A DNA stretch of 64,000 nucleotides from Pseudomonadota bacterium. Its GTDB lineage: Bacteria > Pseudomonadota > Alphaproteobacteria > Acetobacterales > Acetobacteraceae. The position numbers and the translations under genes are program-made. Location: contig JAJZNE010000012.1 of NCBI GenBank assembly GCA_021847995.1, positions 1 through 64,000 on the forward strand, given 5' to 3'. Below the pieces are notes generated by a model, which made no database searches, was not told the origin of the DNA, and saw only the letters and a program-made list of their open reading frames with translations. Below are positions 1,289-9,714 of the stretch, piece after piece; the first letter of the stretch is position 1; the number at the start of each line of letters is the position of its first letter.

Positions 1289-3586
1289 ATGGCCGACGGC
1301 AGCAGCGATCCGCGCACCGCCCGCATCTCGGCCCAGGAGGCGCTGGCGATGCACGCCGCCGGCCGGCCGGGCAAGCTCGAAATCCGCATCACCAAGCCGC
1401 TGCTGACGGCGCGCGACCTGTCGCTCGCCTATTCGCCCGGCGTCGCCGAGCCGTGCCTCGAAATCCACCGCGACCCCACGCTCGCCTATGACTACACCAG
1501 CAAGGGCAACATGGTCGCCGTCGTCTCCAACGGCACGGCGGTTCTCGGCCTCGGCAATCTCGGCGCGCTTGCGGGCAAGCCGGTGATGGAGGGCAAGGTG
1601 GCGCTGTTCAAGCGCTTCGCCGACGTGGACGGGATCGATCTGTGCATCGATACCGAGGACGTGGACCAGCTCGTCAACTGCGTCCGCTACCTCGCGCCCA
1701 GCTTCGGCGGCATCAACCTCGAAGACATCAAGGCGCCGGAGTGCTTCATCATCGAGGCGCGGCTGCGCGAGCTGATGGACGTGCCGGTGTTCCATGACGA
1801 CCAGCACGGCACCGCGATCGTCGCTGCCGCCGGGCTGATGAATGCCTGCCTGCTGACCGGGCGGGAACTCGGGTCGATGCGGCTGGTGGTGAACGGCGCC
1901 GGCGCGGCGGCGATCGCCTGCGTCGAACTGCTCAAGGCGATGGGCATGCCGCACGGCAACATCATCCTCTGCGACACCAAGGGGGTCGTCTACCAGGGCC
2001 GGCGCGAGGGCATGAACCAGTGGAAGAGCGGCCATGCCGTCGCGACCGGCGCCCGCACGCTGGCCGAGGCGCTGGAGGGTGCGGATGCCTTCTTCGGGCT
2101 GTCGGTCAAGGGCGCGCTGACGCAGGACATGGTGCGCAGCATGGCGGACCGGCCGATCCTGTTCGCCATGGCCAACCCCGACCCCGAGATCACGCCGGAG
2201 GAGGCGCGCGCCGCCAGCCCGCAGGCGATCATCGCCACCGGGCGCAGCGACTATCCGAACCAGGTCAACAATGTCCTCGGCTTTCCCTACATCTTCCGCG
2301 GCGCCCTCGATGTGCGCGCGCGCACGATCAACGAGGCGATGAAGATCGCGGCGGCCCGCGCGCTGGCCGAACTGGCGCGCGAGGACGTGCCCGATGAGGT
2401 CAGCACCGCCGGCGCCGGCCACCGGCTGCAATTCGGCGCCGACTACATCATCCCCAACGCCTTCGACCCTCGCCTGATCTCGCGCGTCGCGCCGGCGGTG
2501 GCGAAGGCGGCGATGGATTCGGGCGTCGCGCGCCGGCCGATCGGCGATCTGCGCAAATACGGCCGCGAACTTTCCGGCCGCCTCGATCCGACCGCCAATG
2601 CGCTCGACGCGATCATGGAAAGAGTGCGCGCCGATCCCAAGCGCGTCGTGCTCGCCGAGGGCGAGGAGGAGAAGATGGTGCGCGCCGCCGTCGCCTTCCG
2701 CAATGCCGGCTATGGCACGCCGGTGCTGATCGGGCGGGAGGATCGCGTGCGCGCGACCATGGCGAGCCTCGGCCTCGGCCATGCCGACGGGCTGGAAATC
2801 CACAATGCCCGCCTGTCCCACCACAACCGCAAATATGCCGATTTCCTCTACCGGCGCCTGCAGCGCCGGGGCTACCTGTTCCGCGACTGCCAGCGCATGG
2901 TCAATCAGGACCGCAACGTGTTCGCCGCCTGCATGGTGGCGACCGGCGATGCCGACGCGATGGTGACGGGCCTGACGCGCGCCGCCTCGGCATGCATGGA
3001 CGAGATCGGGCTGGCGATCGACGCGGCACAAGGCGGCATCGCGTTCGGCCTGACGCTGATGATAGGGGCGCGCGGAATGACCCGCTTCATCGCCGACACG
3101 CTGATGCATTTCCGCCCCGACCCGAAGCAGCTCGCCGACATCTGCTGCGGCGCCGCGGCCGCGGCACGCGAACTCGGGCATGAGCCGCGGGTCGCGCTGC
3201 TGTCCCATTCCACCTTCGGCAATCCGATGCACATCACCGTCAACACGATGCGCGAGGCGGTCGCCGAACTCGATGCCCGCGGCGTCGATTTCGAATATGA
3301 CGGGGAGATGTCGCCCGACGTGGCGCTGGAGGAGGCATATCGCGCCCTCTACCCGTTCTGCCGGCTGACCGGGCCTGCCAACATCCTGGTGATGCCGGGG
3401 CTGCATTCGGCGCACATCACCTCCCGCCTGGCACCGCGGCTCGGCGGTGGCGGCACCATCGGGCCGCTGGTGATCGGGCTCACGCATGCCGCCCAACTGG
3501 TGGCAATGGACGCCTCGGTCAGCCAGATCGTCGAGATCGCCGGCATCGCCGCCCACCAGGCCCGGGCACTGGCGCGCGCACGCTAG
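1289..3586 (+). CDS. maeB: NADP-dependent malic enzyme with C-terminal phosphotransacetylase-like domain
   Basis: This 765-residue protein decarboxylates malate to pyruvate, generating NAD(P)H. The N-terminal malic domain (about 1-430) shows the signatures [15 protein letters not shown] and [12 protein letters not shown] and a Rossmann segment [16 protein letters not shown]. The C-terminal part (about 440-765) matches the phosphotransacetylase fold ([16 protein letters not shown] near its start). In the known MaeB fusions this half is regulatory, often acetyl-CoA responsive, and not a proven PTA; which holds here is unknown. An AAAAGGGAGG ribosome site precedes the ATG. The length fits large MaeB proteins. 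It is divergent from mutS, and the next gene starts 177 bp downstream. Confidence 0.95.
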
Positions 3587-3763: not shown

Positions 3764-4861
3764 ATGCTGCTCTCCGCCGCCATGATCGTGAAGAACGAGG
3801 AGCGCTTCCTAGCCGGCTGCCTCGACAGCATCGCCGGGCTGGTGGATGAGGTCGTGATCGTCGATACCGGTTCGACCGATGCGAGCGTGGCGCTGGCCAC
3901 CGCCCGCGGCGCCCGTGTCCATCGCCATGTCTGGCAGGACGATTTCGCCGCCGCCCGCAACGCGGCGCTCGATCTGGCGCGGGGCGACTGGATCCTCTAC
4001 ATCGATGCCGATGAGCGCGCACGGCCGTGCGCGCGTGACCGCCTGAACCGCGAGCTCGCCGATCCGGGGCTCTGTTGCGCGCTGGTGCGGTTCCACCCGC
4101 GCTCCGGCTTCACCGCCTATCCCGAATACCGGCTGTTCCGGCGCGACCCGCGCATCCGCTTCCGCGGCGCGATCCACGAAACCATGCTGCCCGATATAGA
4201 ACGCCTGATCGCCGCCGGCGACGGGCGGATCGGCTGGAGCGGGCTGACCATCGACCATCTCGGGTACGATGACGACCAGTCGCACAAGCTGCCCCGCAAT
4301 CTCAGGCTGCTGGTGAAGGAAACGCGGGTCAACCCGAACCGCATCTATCTGTGGTGGCATCTGGGTACCGTCTATCGCGATCTCGGCCGCCTGGCAGAGG
4401 CTCGCACGGCGTGGCAGACCGGCATCGGCATCGCCCGGCGCGACGACACCAGCCCGCCGGACGGCGTGCTCTGCTACATCGAAGTGATCCGCCTCGGCCT
4501 CGACCACGGCGAGGACATGCGCGGGCTGATCGATGAGGCGGCGGCGGCATATCCCGATGACCTGTTCCTGGTCTGGCTGCGGGGACAGGCGCTGATGGCC
4601 GCAGGCGCCTTCACGCTGGCGGTGGCGGCGTTCGAGACATTGGCCGCGATCGACGCCGACTCGCTGGTCACGCACTCCGCCTATGACCGGCGCGTGTTCG
4701 GCGCGGACGCGCTGGCGGAAGCCGGAACCTGGGCTTTCCGCCTCGGCCGCTGGCGGGAGAGCGAGGCGTTCTTCCGCCGCGCCGAATGGCGGGCGCCCGA
4801 CATGCTGGAATGGCGCGTCAAGCGCCAACTCGCCGGCGCCCGCGCCGCTGCGTTGCCATGA
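3764..4861 (+). CDS. Family 2 glycosyltransferase with TPR-like C-terminus
   Basis: The 365-residue protein starts with a GT-A fold: IVKNEERFLAGCLDSI, then DTGSTD (about 45-50) and a metal-binding D81-A-D83 in YIDADER. This is the arrangement of GT2 enzymes of the SPBc2/SunS-like class, several of which modify peptides or surface glycans. The C-terminal half (about 180-365) is alpha-helical with TPR-like segments (LGTVYRDLGRLAEARTAW, WAFRLGRWRESEAFFRRAEW). It is first in a five-gene operon with two further sugar-transfer proteins, an HPr-kinase-like fusion and a PqqD-like protein, 10 bp before the next start. No strong ribosome site is seen; an in-frame ATG at 3782 is an alternative. The acceptor is unknown. 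Confidence 0.85.
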   Translation: MLLSAAMIVKNEERFLAGCLDSIAGLVDEVVIVDTGSTDASVALATARGARVHRHVWQDDFAAARNAALDLARGDWILYIDADERARPCARDRLNRELADPGLCCALVRFHPRSGFTAYPEYRLFRRDPRIRFRGAIHETMLPDIERLIAAGDGRIGWSGLTIDHLGYDDDQSHKLPRNLRLLVKETRVNPNRIYLWWHLGTVYRDLGRLAEARTAWQTGIGIARRDDTSPPDGVLCYIEVIRLGLDHGEDMRGLIDEAAAAYPDDLFLVWLRGQALMAAGAFTLAVAAFETLAAIDADSLVTHSAYDRRVFGADALAEAGTWAFRLGRWRESEAFFRRAEWRAPDMLEWRVKRQLAGARAAALP

Positions 4862-4871
4862 CCGCCCCCCC

Positions 4872-6389
4872 ATGACGGCGCCGCCGGACGACCCCGCGGA
4901 CCTCGCCGCCGACCTCGCCCGCCAGGCCGCCCACGATCCGCCCTGGCCGGCACAGCGTTTCGCCGGACGGGGCATCGTGATCTGTGCCGGCGGGGCGCGC
5001 ATGTTCACCTGTGCCTGGGTCACCATCGCCGTCCTGCGCCGCCACCTCGGCTGCACCCTGCCGGTCGAGGTGTGGCACCTGGGCAGGCGCGAGATGGGGC
5101 CGCCGATGCGCGGGCTGCTGGAGGATCTCGGCGCGGTGACGGTCGATGCGCACGAGGTGGCGAAGCGCCATCCGGTGCGGCGCCTCGGCGGCTGGGAACT
5201 CAAGGCCTACGCGCTGCTGCACACGCGCTTTGCCGAAGTGCTGCTGCTCGACGCCGACAATCTGCCGGTGCGCGACCCGGGATTCCTGTTCGACTGCACC
5301 GAATACCGCGCAACCGGCGCGCTGTTCTGGCCTGATATCGTGCGCCTCACCCCGGCGAACCAGGTCTGGCGTGTCGGCAACATCCCCTATCGCGACATGC
5401 CCTCCTTCGAATCCGGGCAGATGGTGCTGGACAAAAAGCGGAGCTGGCGCCCGCTCTCCCTCGCCCACTGGATCAACCAGCGCGCCGAGGCGTTCTACCG
5501 CTTCCTGCATGGCGACAAGGACACATTCCTGCTCGCCTGGCTGGTACTGCAACGCCCCTTTCACCTGATCGGCCATGCGCCGAAGGAGCTGCACGGCACG
5601 CTCTGCCAGCGCGATCCCGACGGCGCGGTGCTGTTCCAGCACCGCAACTGGAGAAAATGGATCCTGCACGGCGACAACCCGCACATCGCAGGCTTTCGGC
5701 TGGAGGATGAGTGTCGCGCGCTGCTCGCCGAGCTCGCCGCGTCATGGGACGGGCGGGTGTTCAACCCGCCGCCGCGCTCCGCCGCCGCGCGGCGGACAGA
5801 AGCACGGCTGGCGACGCTGCGTCATTTCGTCCTCACCCGCGTCTCCTCCGACGAGCGGGCGATCACGCTGCTGCCCGATCATCGTGTCGGCTCGGCGGTG
5901 CTGATCGAGCGCTACTGGTTCGTCGCCGATGCGCCCGACGGCCTCGCCCTGCATCTGGCCGGAGAAGGCGTCCCCGTCGCACAGCTGCGTGAGGAGGCGG
6001 GGGGCATCTGGCGCGGGCGGCTGGCGCAGCACCCGTTCATGCCGGTGGAAATCGCACCCGCCGCACGCCGGCCGCTCGACCCCGCGCCCGATCCGCCGCC
6101 GGCGGAAGACGTGATGGCGGCACTGCTCGACCGCGTGCTCGCCACCGCCGCCGCCCTGCCGGCGGAACGGGAGGTGATGCGCGATCTTGTCGGCGCCCTG
6201 CGCCTGCTCTCGGCGCTGTCGCCCGATGTCGCCACCTGGCTGGCGCAGCGCCAGGCCGCCGGCAACGCGGCCGAGGCACGGCTGCTGGCCGTCGCGCGGG
6301 CGGCACTTGCCGTCGCCATCCCGGTCACGCCCGGCCGCGACTGGCTCGGCGCCGATTTCACCCTCGCCACCGGCTACGAGCGGCGATGA
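4872..6389 (+). CDS. Putative mannosyltransferase-like glycosyltransferase (GT-A, DADN motif)
   Basis: The 505-residue protein resembles the Mannosyl_trans3/MNN1-type alpha-mannosyltransferase fold in its first ~320 residues: GIVICAGGARMFTCAW (about 35-50), WELKAYALLHTRFAEVLLLD and the D127-A-D129-N metal motif. A C-terminal region (about 330-505) with no family I recognise follows. Proteins of this fold are best known from fungi, but bacterial relatives exist. The ATG at 4872 is used because the ATG at 4858 hits a stop at once. The stop overlaps the next ATG (ATGA at 6386), so it is probably translated with the HprK-fusion gene. Donor and acceptor sugars cannot be read from sequence. Confidence 0.75.
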   Translation: MTAPPDDPADLAADLARQAAHDPPWPAQRFAGRGIVICAGGARMFTCAWVTIAVLRRHLGCTLPVEVWHLGRREMGPPMRGLLEDLGAVTVDAHEVAKRHPVRRLGGWELKAYALLHTRFAEVLLLDADNLPVRDPGFLFDCTEYRATGALFWPDIVRLTPANQVWRVGNIPYRDMPSFESGQMVLDKKRSWRPLSLAHWINQRAEAFYRFLHGDKDTFLLAWLVLQRPFHLIGHAPKELHGTLCQRDPDGAVLFQHRNWRKWILHGDNPHIAGFRLEDECRALLAELAASWDGRVFNPPPRSAAARRTEARLATLRHFVLTRVSSDERAITLLPDHRVGSAVLIERYWFVADAPDGLALHLAGEGVPVAQLREEAGGIWRGRLAQHPFMPVEIAPAARRPLDPAPDPPPAEDVMAALLDRVLATAAALPAEREVMRDLVGALRLLSALSPDVATWLAQRQAAGNAAEARLLAVARAALAVAIPVTPGRDWLGADFTLATGYERR

Positions 6390-8023
6390 CGCGGGCGTCC
6401 CCCGCCGCCGTGCCGGAGAGCGTTCTGGTCCTGACGCCGCTCAAGAACGCCGCCCGCTTCGCCGAAACCTATTTCGACAACCTCGCCGCCCTCACCTATC
6501 CCGCCGGACGGCTGTCGCTCGGCCTGCTGGAGAGCGACAGCGACGATGATACCCACGACCGCTTCGCCGCCCGGCTGCCCGCCCTTGCCGGGCATTTCGC
6601 CGCCGCGCGCATCTGGCGGCATGATTTCGGCTGGCGGATGCCGCCCGGCCTGCCGCGTTGGCACAGCGCATTGCAGTTGCCGCGGCGCAGGATCCTGGCG
6701 AAGGCACGCAACCACCTGCTGTTCCGCGCCCTCGACGATCAGGACTGGGTGCTGTGGCTGGATGCCGACGTGATCGCCTATCCGCCCGACCTGATCGAAC
6801 GCCTGCTCGCCGCGGGGCGCGACATCGTGCATCCGCATTGCGTGCGCCAGCCAGGCGGCCCCACCTTCGACCTCAACGCCTGGCGCGATCACGGCCGCGC
6901 CGTGATGCAGGATCTGCGCGACGGCCCCGATCTCGTGCGCCTCGATGCGGTCGGCGGCACGGTGCTGCTGGTGCGTGCCGACCGCCATCGCGACGGCCTC
7001 GTGTTCCCGAGCTTTCCCTACGGCGCAGCGCACCGGGCGGCGCGGCGTCCGGGCCCGTTCGGCGCCGGCATCGAAGGCGAGATCGAAACCGAGGGTCTCG
7101 GCCTGATGGCGCTCGACATGGGCGCGCAGCCCTGGGGCATGCCGAAGCTCGAAGTCTTCCACGCCGAGGATCCGCCGCCCGGAATGCTGCGTCAGCCGGT
7201 CCGCCGCCTGGGGTGCCTGTTCGAGATCGAGACGGAATCGGCGGATCTGCACGCGGCGCTGACGGAGCTTGCGTTGCCGGCCGCGCAGCCCGGCCCGATC
7301 CGCCATCGCGAGATCATCCGGGTGCAATCGGCCGGGGGCGCGTTCCGCTTCGACGATGGCGGCAGAGAGGATTTCGAGTTCGACCTGACGACTCTGCTCA
7401 ACCGCCTCAACCGCCGCATCGCGGCAACAACGCACGCGACGCTGCCCGGCTACGGCCTGGTCACCGCCGCCTGTCTCTGGCATGGCGATGCGCACGTCCT
7501 GATCCTCGGTGAGGGCGGTGCCGGCAAATCCTGCCTGGCGATGCAATTGCTGCTCGACGGCATGGCGGTGACCGGCGATGCGACCGTGCTGGTCGGGGAA
7601 GGACTGGCGATACCCTGGCCGCATCCGTTCAGTCTCAGCGAGGACTCGGTCGCCCTGCTGCCCGGTCTCGCCGCCGATGCACGGTTCCGCGACCATCTCG
7701 AACGGCCGCATGCCGGCTGGCGTCTCTCTCTCACGCCGCACGGCTTCGGCCGGCCGTGGCGGATCGCTCCGGCGCCGATCGCGGCTGTGTTCGATCTCGA
7801 TCCGAATTTCGGCGGCCTCAACCGCCTCCGGCCGTGTGCCACCACCGCCATGATGCAGCGCCTCCTGGCCCGCGCCGAGCCGCCGGCCGGACTGCGTGGC
7901 CGCTGGCTCGCCGATCTCGCCGCCTCGCTGGCGGGAGCGGCCTGCCACGTCCTGCAGGCAGGCGATCCGGTCGGCGCGGCGGCGGCGGTGATGGCCGTGC
8001 TCGCTGACCTGCCCCGGCGATGA
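6386..8023 (+). CDS. Fusion: Anp1-like glycosyltransferase + HPr-kinase-like P-loop domain
   Basis: The 545-residue protein joins two modules. Residues about 10-270 are a GT-A glycosyltransferase resembling the Anp1/mannan-polymerase family: VLVLTPLKNAARFAETY, an ESDSDDDT stretch and D126-A-D128 in LWLDADVIAYPPDL. Residues about 340-545 resemble HPr kinase/phosphorylase-type kinases: Walker A G375-EGGAGK-S382, followed by DGMAVTGDATVLV, matching the place of the acidic motif in HprK. HprK-like domains in bacterial clusters phosphorylate proteins, peptides or small sugars. The gene is ATGA-coupled on both sides (6386 and 8020) and lies two genes before a PqqD-like gene, a partner often seen with HprK-related kinases. 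The fusion itself is unusual. The assignment of the first domain is less certain than that of the P-loop. Confidence 0.75.
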   Translation: MTRASPAAVPESVLVLTPLKNAARFAETYFDNLAALTYPAGRLSLGLLESDSDDDTHDRFAARLPALAGHFAAARIWRHDFGWRMPPGLPRWHSALQLPRRRILAKARNHLLFRALDDQDWVLWLDADVIAYPPDLIERLLAAGRDIVHPHCVRQPGGPTFDLNAWRDHGRAVMQDLRDGPDLVRLDAVGGTVLLVRADRHRDGLVFPSFPYGAAHRAARRPGPFGAGIEGEIETEGLGLMALDMGAQPWGMPKLEVFHAEDPPPGMLRQPVRRLGCLFEIETESADLHAALTELALPAAQPGPIRHREIIRVQSAGGAFRFDDGGREDFEFDLTTLLNRLNRRIAATTHATLPGYGLVTAACLWHGDAHVLILGEGGAGKSCLAMQLLLDGMAVTGDATVLVGEGLAIPWPHPFSLSEDSVALLPGLAADARFRDHLERPHAGWRLSLTPHGFGRPWRIAPAPIAAVFDLDPNFGGLNRLRPCATTAMMQRLLARAEPPAGLRGRWLADLAASLAGAACHVLQAGDPVGAAAAVMAVLADLPRR

Positions 8024-9354
8024 GCCGGCCGGCGCTGCTCTATATCACGCCGTTGATACCGCAGAGCGGCGGCAATGGCCTTGCCATGCGGGCCGGCGCG
8101 ATCCTGGAGGCGCTGGCGGCGTCCTTCGATGTGCATCTGGCGGTGCTGCCGGTGGCCGGCGCGGCCGGGCCGGTCGGGGCGCTTGTCCGCCGCTGCGCCG
8201 TGCGCCATCTCATCATCGATCCGTCCACGACGCTCGATCCGCTGTTCGCCCTGATCGCCGCAATCGCCGATCCGGCGGCGCGCGCCGCCGCCCGGCGGGC
8301 CTACCCCAAGCCGTTCCTCAGCTGCGCCGCGACCGGGGATGCCGCGCATCGCGTGCTGGCGTGGGCCCGCCCGGCGGCGCCGCGCGCGGTGCATGTGATG
8401 CGGCTCTATCTCGCGCCCCTGATCGAACCCTGGCTGCGTCACGCCCCGCCGGCGCGGCCCTTCACCGTGCTCGATCTCGACGAGGACGACGCCGCCGCCG
8501 GCGAGCGGCTCGCCGCCCTGTTCGACGCCACCGGCAGGCCCGGCTGCGCCGCTTCGGCGCGGGCGGAGGCGCTTGCCTGCCGCGGTCTCGCCCGCCGGCT
8601 GCTGCCCGCGTTCGACCGCATCGCCGTCAGCGCGGCCGGAGAGGCGACGCATCTTGCCGCCGCCATTCCGCCGGCGCGCATCGCGGTGCTGCCCAACACC
8701 GTCGCGCCGCGCCCGCGCCTGCCGCAGCGCCCCGCCGCCGGCCCGCTGCGGCTGCTGTTCGTCGGGACGTTCGGGCATGCCCCGAATGCCGATGCCGCGC
8801 GCTTCCTCTGCGGCGAGGTGCTGCCGGCCCTGCGCCGGCTGACCGGCCGGGCGATCGCGATCGATCTGGTCGGGTCGGGCGATGCCGGCGACCTCGGCGA
8901 TCTGACGGCAGCGCCCGAGGTGACGCTGCATGGTCCGGTGCCGGACCTCGGTCCATTCTACGCCGCCGCCGACATGGCGGTGGCCCCGCTGCGCGCCGGT
9001 GGCGGCACGCGGATCAAGCTTCTGGAGGCGTTCGCCTTCGGCGTCCCAGTGGTGGCGACGACCCTGGCGGCGGACGGGCTGGAACTGTGCCATGGCGGCC
9101 ATCTGCTGCTCGCCGACACGCCGGACGGTTTCGCCCGCGCCTGCTGGGAGGTGGCGCTGTTTCCCGATCAGGCGGCACGCCGCGCCGACCGCGCCGCGGC
9201 ACTGGTGGCCGGCCGCTATGGGCCGGCGCCGTTGCTTGACGCGGTGTCGCGGCTTTACGCTGCGATCGCCTCGGCAGAAGGGAACCGGCATGACCGACAC
9301 GGCGCAGGACTGGCCGATCAGGGTAGCGGACCTGGAGATCAATCCGGTCAATGA
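8020..9354 (+). CDS. Family 4-type glycosyltransferase
   Basis: The 444-residue protein has the GT-B architecture. The N-terminal half begins YITPLIPQSGGNGLAMRA. The C-terminal half carries the nucleotide-sugar site: LLFVGTFGHAPNADAARFL (about 246-264), APLRAGGGTRIKLLEAFAFG and VPVVATTLAADGLE. It would transfer a sugar from an activated donor to an acceptor not identifiable here. The start is ATGA-coupled to the HprK-fusion gene. Its 3' end overlaps the following PqqD-like gene by 65 bp in a different frame, an unusually long overlap that suggests tight co-translation. The last ~20 residues, which lie in the overlap, look non-conserved. Confidence 0.85.
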   Translation: MSRPALLYITPLIPQSGGNGLAMRAGAILEALAASFDVHLAVLPVAGAAGPVGALVRRCAVRHLIIDPSTTLDPLFALIAAIADPAARAAARRAYPKPFLSCAATGDAAHRVLAWARPAAPRAVHVMRLYLAPLIEPWLRHAPPARPFTVLDLDEDDAAAGERLAALFDATGRPGCAASARAEALACRGLARRLLPAFDRIAVSAAGEATHLAAAIPPARIAVLPNTVAPRPRLPQRPAAGPLRLLFVGTFGHAPNADAARFLCGEVLPALRRLTGRAIAIDLVGSGDAGDLGDLTAAPEVTLHGPVPDLGPFYAAADMAVAPLRAGGGTRIKLLEAFAFGVPVVATTLAADGLELCHGGHLLLADTPDGFARACWEVALFPDQAARRADRAAALVAGRYGPAPLLDAVSRLYAAIASAEGNRHDRHGAGLADQGSGPGDQSGQ

Positions 9355-9559
9355 CGGCTACGTGGTCTATCACGCGGCACGGGACCGGGTGCATCATCTG
9401 AACCAGACGGCGGCGCTGGTGTTCGAATTGTGCAACGGCCGCAACGCGCCCGACGAACTGGCGCGCCTGATGCAGCAGGCCTGGCAGCTTCCCGCGCCGC
9501 CGGCCGAGGAAGTGGCAGCCTGCCTCGCCGTGCTGCGGGAGGAAGGGTTGATCCGCTGA
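9290..9559 (+). CDS. PqqD-family protein (RiPP recognition element-like)
   Basis: This 89-residue protein has the PqqD fold pattern: a hydrophobic strand region (YVVYHAARDRVHHLNQTAALV) followed by FELCNGRNAPDELARLM and a C-terminal helical segment ending in CLAVLREEGLI. PqqD proteins are small winged-helix chaperones that bind leader peptides and hand them to modifying enzymes. Stand-alone relatives occur beside HprK-related kinases. The ATG at 9290 has a good ribosome site (AGAAGGGA) and lies inside the end of the upstream glycosyltransferase gene. No PQQ synthesis genes are nearby, so a role in PQQ synthesis is unlikely. The substrate is not identified; a short coupled frame follows at 9559. 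Confidence 0.85.
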   Translation: MTDTAQDWPIRVADLEINPVNDGYVVYHAARDRVHHLNQTAALVFELCNGRNAPDELARLMQQAWQLPAPPAEEVAACLAVLREEGLIR

Positions 9560-9714
9560 TGCCGTCCTGCCGAGCGCCACCGGCCGGCGGCGCCGCCGAT
9601 CAACTCGCTGCGGCGCGCGGCCTGGTACCCCTTTCCCGCCGCACCCCCCCGCCGCTTCTCACCCCGCGTCTGCGGCCCGCCGTTCCTTACCGGCTGCAGG
9701 GCGCGACAGGATAA
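9559..9714 (+). CDS. Possible 51-residue peptide coupled to the PqqD-like gene
   Basis: The stop of the PqqD-like gene overlaps an ATG (TGATG at 9557-9561) that opens a 51-codon frame ending in TAA at 9712. The predicted peptide begins MPSCRAPPAGGAADQLAAAR and is rich in Pro, Arg and Ala, with one Cys near the start. In a cluster containing a PqqD-like protein, a short coupled frame is a candidate substrate peptide. However, composition and codon use are also what GC-rich noncoding DNA would give, and no core motif is visible. Treat it as a hypothesis only. Confidence 0.2.
   Translation: MPSCRAPPAGGAADQLAAARGLVPLSRRTPPPLLTPRLRPAVPYRLQGATG

Follow-up and report, generated by a model that had tools for sequence, protein, structure and literature searches.

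What do four glycosyltransferases, an HPr-kinase-like domain and a stand-alone PqqD protein act on when they are encoded together? This question is raised by an operon of five genes, here called A to E in their order, which lies at 3764-9559 on the plus strand of the window, the whole 64,000-nucleotide stretch of contig JAJZNE010000012.1 (Acetobacteraceae) that was analysed. A and B are separated by a 10-bp gap, B/C and C/D share ATGA overlaps, and D/E overlap by 65 bp, just as a preliminary description of this DNA had reported; its start at 3764 was also right, but its end at 9714 was not, since the PqqD gene stops at 9559, and the open reading frame at 9430-9714, in another frame, had no family match in a Pfam scan. 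The results show that the gene set is real, rare and widely scattered, and that its likely substrates, small proteins with a common leader, can now be named. The operon probably supplies the enzymes of a system in which a leader guides the glycosylation of small exported proteins, and which resembles the pathways of ribosomally synthesized and post-translationally modified peptides (RiPPs). Judged from the sequences, an Asn acceptor, phosphorylation and export by twin-arginine translocation (Tat) are less certain than leader-guided glycosylation itself.

Recurrence of the gene set and its leader-bearing companions

Using B of the window and B of a second locus, L027, as queries against 84,980 species genomes, we found 45 loci with a relative of B, 21 of which (the member loci) have all or part of the set nearby in varied order. 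For closer examination, 23 loci were chosen for the presence of at least two parts, namely the 21 member loci, the window and L127 (L132, found later, was excluded). The complete set of A, B, Anp1, HprK, D and E is present in 19 of these 23 selected loci; L062 is without Anp1 and D, L063 without D, L077 (a short contig) without Anp1, and L079 has B, D and HprK only. Of the loci under this selection, 22 have E and HprK together with A and B. Gene order and strand vary among lineages, and an alignment of 20 A proteins gives 13 groups at 60% identity. Fusion of B with Anp1 is seen in L053, L054 and L055, and the Anp1-HprK fusion is found, among the loci examined, only in the window, the two being separate genes elsewhere. 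The absence or scrambling of the set in all relatives, which the preliminary description had considered, is thus not what we found: the order varies and the full set recurs.

The records are labelled as alphaproteobacterial (Acidocella, Reyranella, Bradyrhizobium, Methylorubrum, Phreatobacter, Oricola and others) and, for metagenome bins as recorded, as 'Actinomycetes' and 'Deltaproteobacteria'. Within L047 there is a GT10 fucosyltransferase-family gene and within L048 an FkbM methyltransferase, both of which suit glycan assembly. A relative of the nucleotidyltransferase of L027 (PF14907) occurs at 10 of the 45 loci, all ten among the member loci, and in the window's own genome this family appeared only below the cut-off. 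A general Acetobacteraceae system was rejected, since intact B was found in 2 of the 299 family genomes searched and in none of four same-genus genomes. Against plasmids, B gave no match and C matched six records through its Anp1 part only (34-48% identity); the whole C protein was unproductive as a query of genome contigs.

Small proteins encoded between or beside the cluster genes have a common leader, approximately D..(R/K)R..L.+L...A(F/Y)xxP.VxSF.MDGL and then AxA. They are present in 19 of the 21 member loci, the exceptions being L079, which has none, and L075, which has a different small open reading frame with RYQAP; that of L077 is a weak match. No NCBIfam model exceeded its cut-off in the leaders of the seven proteins scanned. 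The cores after the leader are variable and include S74-chaperone domains in Acidocella, pentapeptide repeats in L048 (221 aa) and Thr-rich stretches in L062 and L063, and several are only 3-13 residues long, such as AIVSNSTTS, IVPNAS and YVTNITG. Within the window itself a leader protein was rejected, as both the leader model and a motif scan came back empty.

The motif, Asn and C-terminal counts given here are based on 32 distinct leader proteins. Left out as Tat-like or noise were those of L128, L129, L130, L131, L112, L117, L116, L122, L118, L123, L111, L113, L070, L109, L080 and L120 and a noise row of L132, together with anything scoring below 25 bits, one 44-residue fragment of L071 and a row from the minus strand of L090; the L132 gene was counted as that of L098, the L127 genes as those of L106, and the L064 and L027 genes as those of L026. 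The later leader model was rebuilt from 39 segments above 16 bits, including a few Tat-like sequences, from which the genome-search profile was free. (F/Y)xxP is present in all 32 leaders, a count that is partly circular because the motif is present in the model seeds. It is preceded by [KR]R in 31 leaders, the L077 leader keeping the motif without twin basic residues, and a loose [AVS]xA site follows it in 32 of 32 (shuffles average 18.2, maximum 26). The twin basic residues, a hydrophobic stretch and the AxA-type site make the leader Tat-like. All 32 proteins have the conserved leader and variable core of RiPP-type precursors, and we infer from their sequences that they serve as such.

Searched across genomes, the leader profile gave one strong hit in the window's own genome, which had not contributed to the profile (E 6.5e-13, next 1.1). 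In Bradyrhizobium it led blindly to a second place, where the DNA encodes another complete cluster and, in tandem, two leader proteins. A match on another contig of the L079 genome (Hyphomicrobiales) uncovered a further cluster of nucleotidyltransferase, A, a 59-aa leader protein, HprK, PqqD, an extra open reading frame, Anp1 and B; the extra frame is GT10-like by its letters and has no NCBIfam match, and D was not found in this cluster by tblastn. First-look candidates were scored up to a limit of 18 per genome in the class scan and 23 in the family scan. Among the 299 family genomes, a strong leader was found only in the own genome and in G282, whose sequences were part of the profile, and these are the two genomes with intact B; a third, G055, gave a weak hit of 22.8 bits, and G164, whose truncated B adjoins D and PqqD, gave no leader hit below E 0.7. 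Among 385 class genomes, a strong leader was found only in the own genome, with three others at about 22 bits, two of which resemble Tat-type signals.

The enzymes, their proposed order of action and a candidate precursor

A carries the Pfam domains Glycos_transf_2 and TPR. A profile of 20 A sequences matched the solved structures of GmaR (3e-46), SunS (2e-33) and 7msk (ThuS, 3e-26). When the predicted model of A (predicted local distance difference test, pLDDT, 94.9) was compared with Foldseek, places 1-6 were all SunS/ThuS (E 5e-19 to 4e-18), and the next family followed at only 1e-8; TMq was 0.62-0.64, and the root-mean-square deviation was 3.2-3.3 for 7msp and 12.5-13.8 for the other four chains. 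In its predicted model, A has the GT-A plus helical-repeat fold of the peptide glycosyltransferases SunS and ThuS. Residues D81, A82 and D83 are invariant across the 20 aligned sequences. B belongs to Mannosyl_trans3 (PF11051, 6.9e-32), the N-terminal part of C to Anp1 (PF03452, 2.9e-47), and D to Glyco_trans_1_4 (PF13692, 1.4e-21), with TIGR03087 at 2.1e-28, below that model's cut-off.

Sequence comparison gave only weak matches for the C-terminal part of C (Hpr_kinase_C 0.14; NCBIfam HprK_rel_A 3e-5, with 23 bits where the cut-off is 200). With its structure model (pLDDT 90), Foldseek filled ranks 1-34 with phosphoenolpyruvate (PEP) carboxykinases (best E 7e-6), the first HPr kinases appearing at rank 35 (E 1.2e-3); the two families have one common kinase fold. 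After realignment with VIA-align 2, the seven best were all HPr kinase/phosphorylase (Z 12.2-13.3 over 125-139 of 239 residues), and PEP carboxykinases followed at Z 11.2 or less. The fold comparison thus strengthens the HprK identity of this part, which has the common fold together with an intact P-loop, GEGGAGKS, at residue 375 of C. The preliminary description, which had read the operon as four sugar-transfer proteins, an HprK-like domain and a PqqD-like protein, is borne out by Pfam matches in all five genes and, for the kinase, by the fold.

E belongs to the PqqD family of RiPP recognition elements (PF05402, 7.2e-10, 39.5 bits against a cut-off of 23.4), and its binding of a leader is a prediction. 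Two other PqqD genes in the own genome (G000:C93 and G000:C153) adjoin genes of the pyrroloquinoline quinone type, which by their open-reading-frame letters are PqqB/PqqC-like on C93 and radical SAM PqqE-like on C153, so that the window PqqD is a third, separate one.

The available text of PMC12710340 describes PqqD-type recognition elements of several classes that bind W/Y/LxxP/L/I, and YxxP as known for lasso peptides. Since (F/Y)xxP is present in every leader, E probably docks the precursor through it. A would then add the first sugar to the core, in the manner of SunS, ThuS and GmaR, at or beside a conserved Asn, often in N-x-S/T, and elongation of the sugar chain would fall to B, D and the Anp1 domain of C. 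The HPr-kinase-fold domain of C, if its P-loop is intact, would phosphorylate either the core, in a subset at a C-terminal Ser, or the glycan. All of these modification steps would take place in the cytoplasm, and the enzymes are presumably soluble. The precursor would afterwards exit by its signal-peptide-like leader and be cleaved, and a Tat-like leader would permit the export of an already modified, folded protein.

With regard to the acceptor, Asn is found within 28 residues after the SF motif in 32 of 32 leader proteins (background probability per segment 0.49), and N-x-S/T within 40 residues in 21 of them (shuffle mean 7.8; reached in 0 of 2000 shuffles). Within 40 residues after the last AxA-type site, Asn alone is present in all 32, Ser being present in 28 and Thr in 27. 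Most of the residues counted in the Asn region lie outside the leader model, so these counts, in which related sequences are included, are hardly circular. The Asn in all 32 cores and the excess of N-x-S/T thus lead us to favour Asn, over its rival Ser/Thr, as the candidate acceptor or as an element of the recognition site. A C-terminal Ser occurs in 9 of the 32 (background 0.042; binomial 5e-6, with kinship ignored and the pattern noticed post hoc), and HPr-kinase homologues phosphorylate a C-terminal Ser in lasso precursors, according to the available text of PMC8498205. The kinase fold, the intact window P-loop and this subset only suggest that the core or the glycan is phosphorylated.

In the window's own genome, the precursor would be the 197-aa protein on contig C71. 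Its leader is followed by six octapeptide repeats with NI or NL (GPLLGNIG GPARGNIG GPLSGNLI TPIKSNIH GPKKGNIG SPLGGNLT), and then come a region rich in Pro and Ser, a marginal PEP-CTERM motif and a terminal Ser. All six Asn of the protein, at 61, 69, 77, 85, 93 and 101, are spaced by exactly eight residues. The PEP-CTERM models are marginally exceeded (PF07589 20.9 against 20.7; TIGR02595 18.9 against 16), exosortase PF09721 gave no match at E 1 in the 94% complete own assembly, and the next open frame after the precursor gene encodes a TPR-rich protein similar to the PrsT found in PEP-CTERM systems (2.3e-15, below cut-off). A search of the own genome for an S74-type protein like that of Acidocella gave an empty answer, which is of little weight.

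Table 1. Genes of the operon, the candidate precursor and HprK relatives with a degenerate P-loop
Feature	Location	Strand	Length	Description
A	3764..4861	+	365 aa	GT2 glycosyltransferase of GT-A type, ending in TPR-like helices; proposed to glycosylate the peptide first
B	4872..6389	+	505 aa	Glycosyltransferase of the Mannosyl_trans3 family, with an additional region at the C terminus
C	6386..8023	+	545 aa	Anp1 glycosyltransferase (~6386-7210) fused to HPr-kinase-fold domain (~7304-8020)
D	8020..9354	+	444 aa	Group 1 (GT4-type) glycosyltransferase, TIGR03087-like
E	9290..9559	+	89 aa	PqqD family; proposed leader-binding recognition element
Candidate precursor	C71:13929-14522		197 aa	Leader-profile hit on another contig of the same genome
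HprK relative, L053	14280-15248			Degenerate P-loop
HprK relative, L075	6667-7545			Degenerate P-loop
HprK relative, L077	7554-8432			Degenerate P-loop

Competing readings of the operon

Several observations weigh against leader-guided glycosylation. B stands alone in 24 of the 45 loci, within the available DNA, some of it short, and Anp1 or D is absent in some loci (L062, L063, L132). The Methylorubrum genome (L075) and that of L077 have the cluster, yet the leader profile found nothing under E 0.1 in them. Besides the partial circularity of the (F/Y)xxP count, 11 of the 32 leader proteins are without N-x-S/T within 40 residues. The C71 precursor is encoded on another contig and not in the window operon, so that the leader alone links it to the enzymes. 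The P-loop is degenerate in 3 of 19 aligned HprK relatives (Table 1), which means that a kinase step is not universal and suggests a non-kinase role in those loci. The peak mean hydropathy over 19 residues (A 1.79, D 1.78, B 1.64) is borderline against the usual membrane-segment threshold of about 1.6, and a membrane location of these three is possible. Finally, weak leader matches elsewhere resemble Tat-type signal peptides, and therefore part of the leader conservation may reflect export.

It could be that the leader is a Tat signal peptide and nothing else, the small proteins being exported partners or neighbours, such as anchors or binding proteins, while the glycosyltransferases build something else. 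The near-universal twin basic residues and the [AVS]xA-type site agree with this, as do the Tat-like weak hits in other genomes, two of which were taken from their letters as TRAP-type binding proteins. However, Tat signals are common, and the strong leader is confined to genomes with the cluster, just 1 of 385 in the class and 2 of 299 in the family (with up to 18 and 23 first-look candidates scored in each genome), which counts against a leader that serves export only. In addition, the L077 leader has the motif although twin basic residues are absent, and cores of 3-13 residues would make poor binding proteins. We consider this explanation unlikely. Another one, which has its first steps in common with leader-guided glycosylation, is that the peptide is the primer or carrier of a secreted glycan and is left as a stub at its reducing end. 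Several cores are very short, yet most loci have three to four glycosyltransferase families, and the cargo is highly diverse (S74 domain, pentapeptide repeats, Thr-rich, PEP-CTERM). Multiple tandem precursors and the long cargos, of 221 aa in L048 and 197 aa in the own genome, suit a protein coat better than a primer, and no polymerase or flippase is among the five window genes by Pfam, all of which renders a primer improbable. A third reading takes the operon as one for an ordinary surface polysaccharide or lipopolysaccharide, with the PqqD protein and the HprK relative there by chance. Its four consecutive glycosyltransferase domains agree with this, as does the likeness of D to glycosyltransferases of XrtA systems. 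Chance would hardly keep E and HprK with A and B in nearly all selected loci despite reshuffled order and strand; moreover, leaders accompany the set, and a Pfam scan of the five window genes and of nine genes of L027 showed no Wzx/Wzy-type or undecaprenyl-phosphate transferase family. We regard this last explanation as very improbable.

The preliminary description had proposed that the locus glycosylates and phosphorylates a peptide or protein, or else builds a surface glycan that carries phosphate. Modification of a peptide or protein is well supported by the leader proteins beside the set in most member loci and by the own-genome protein encoded elsewhere; the phosphorylation part is only suggested, and the surface glycan found no specific support. 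Leader-guided glycosylation might go further and represent a new class of ribosomal glycopeptides, a proposal we put forward tentatively, in which an oligosaccharide would be built in the cytoplasm on Asn of 3-13-residue cores or of repeat proteins by Mnn9/Anp1 and Mnn1-like enzymes, with HPr-kinase-type phosphorylation last, a Tat-like exit and substrates possibly encoded in trans. The Mnn9/Anp1 and Mnn1-like families are known from yeast mannan. With predicted enzymes and predicted substrates at hand, the target of stand-alone PqqD and HprK-related proteins becomes directly testable. If leader-guided glycosylation is the right reading, it would add multi-sugar peptide modification to the RiPP world, place glycosyltransferase families of the yeast-mannan type in bacterial peptide modification, and provide a short leader signature for substrate finding in other genomes.

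Related systems and genomic surroundings

The nearest described kinds are the HPr-rel-A system and the phosphorylated or phosphoglycosylated lasso peptides (paeninodin, pseudomycoidin and those of rumen Butyrivibrio). HPr-rel-A likewise joins an HprK-related kinase (TIGR04352) to a stand-alone PqqD (TIGR04353), and the nucleotidyltransferase relative at ten member loci adds to the likeness. Its kinase cut-off of 200 is reached neither by the window (23.3 bits) nor by L027 (43.2), and of the PqqD proteins that of L027 (41.4) lies above the cut-off of 35 and that of the window (31.7) below; the present set differs by its glycosyltransferases of four families and by leader proteins without an NCBIfam model. 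The rumen lasso clusters have an HPr kinase, a nucleotidyltransferase and a family 2 glycosyltransferase, with PqqD in 46% of the genomes analysed, according to the available text of PMC7533575. A YxxP-type leader is a further likeness to lasso systems (PMC12710340, available text), whereas the window adds Mannosyl_trans3, Anp1 and GT4-type enzymes and the leader is otherwise different. Pfam showed neither the asparagine-synthetase-like lasso cyclase nor the B2 protease among the five genes of the window and nine genes of L027, the rest of the genome not having been searched.

A has the same two-domain fold as the glycocin enzymes SunS and ThuS and Listeria GmaR, which by analogy points to a peptide or protein substrate; it scores 56.4 bits against the SunS model TIGR04195, whose cut-off is 350, and to our knowledge glycocin loci have no PqqD, Anp1 or HprK. 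In mycofactocin, which is made from a ribosomal peptide, MftB is a PqqD-like chaperone and MftF a GT2 glycosyltransferase. The likeness lies in the PqqD-like protein and the GT2 enzyme, A matching the MftF model weakly (1e-7), and the difference in the radical SAM family of MftC, which is not among the five window genes by Pfam. In the open-access literature (preprints were outside the scope), we found neither the four-family set with these leaders nor its assignment to a described pathway, the latter a possibility that the preliminary description had raised. Nor did we find there a paper that joins HprK, PqqD and a glycosyltransferase, one on HPr-rel-A or the HprK-related kinase, one that combines Anp1, glycosyltransferase and RiPP, or one that combines RiPP, glycosyltransferase, twin-arginine and precursor peptide; the papers found that join PqqD and HPr kinase are all on lasso peptides. 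The pathway is predicted to work like a RiPP pathway, and the strict classification of its product as a RiPP is a matter of chemistry.

The operon is flanked by a malic enzyme/phosphotransacetylase fusion and by an OprB porin on the opposite strand (Pfam). In all four same-genus genomes, DNA similarity stops at window position 3561, inside the end of the malic enzyme gene, which shows that the operon is absent from that site there; in the available DNA of these genomes, OprB is not next after the malic enzyme gene. A defence system listed in PADLOC was rejected, with no match at E 0.01. A small Cys/Pro-rich protein at L130 997-1692 (in G513, a genome that the class search with B did not match) has a leader-like start (RRRALARLGLAIGAAYVAPVI), and none of the cluster families lies within about 3 kb of it.

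Records labelled Verrucomicrobia, Planctomycetes and Bacteroidota are included among the loci with B alone (e.g. L060, L066, L073, L082, L086-L089). G164 carries a decayed copy, in which B is cut to 262 aa beside D and PqqD (G164:C11, L045 8149-10646); its Anp1 gene is on another contig (G164:C32, L028 7090-7857), and a leader protein was not found. At L079 8056-9793, a glycosyltransferase of the GNT-I family (3.8e-97), which is known from eukaryotic N-glycans, and a GT25-family gene lie beside B, D and HprK. The Phreatobacter-labelled locus L090 (9494-17768) holds two B genes, two HprK genes and three tandem leader proteins in one cluster.

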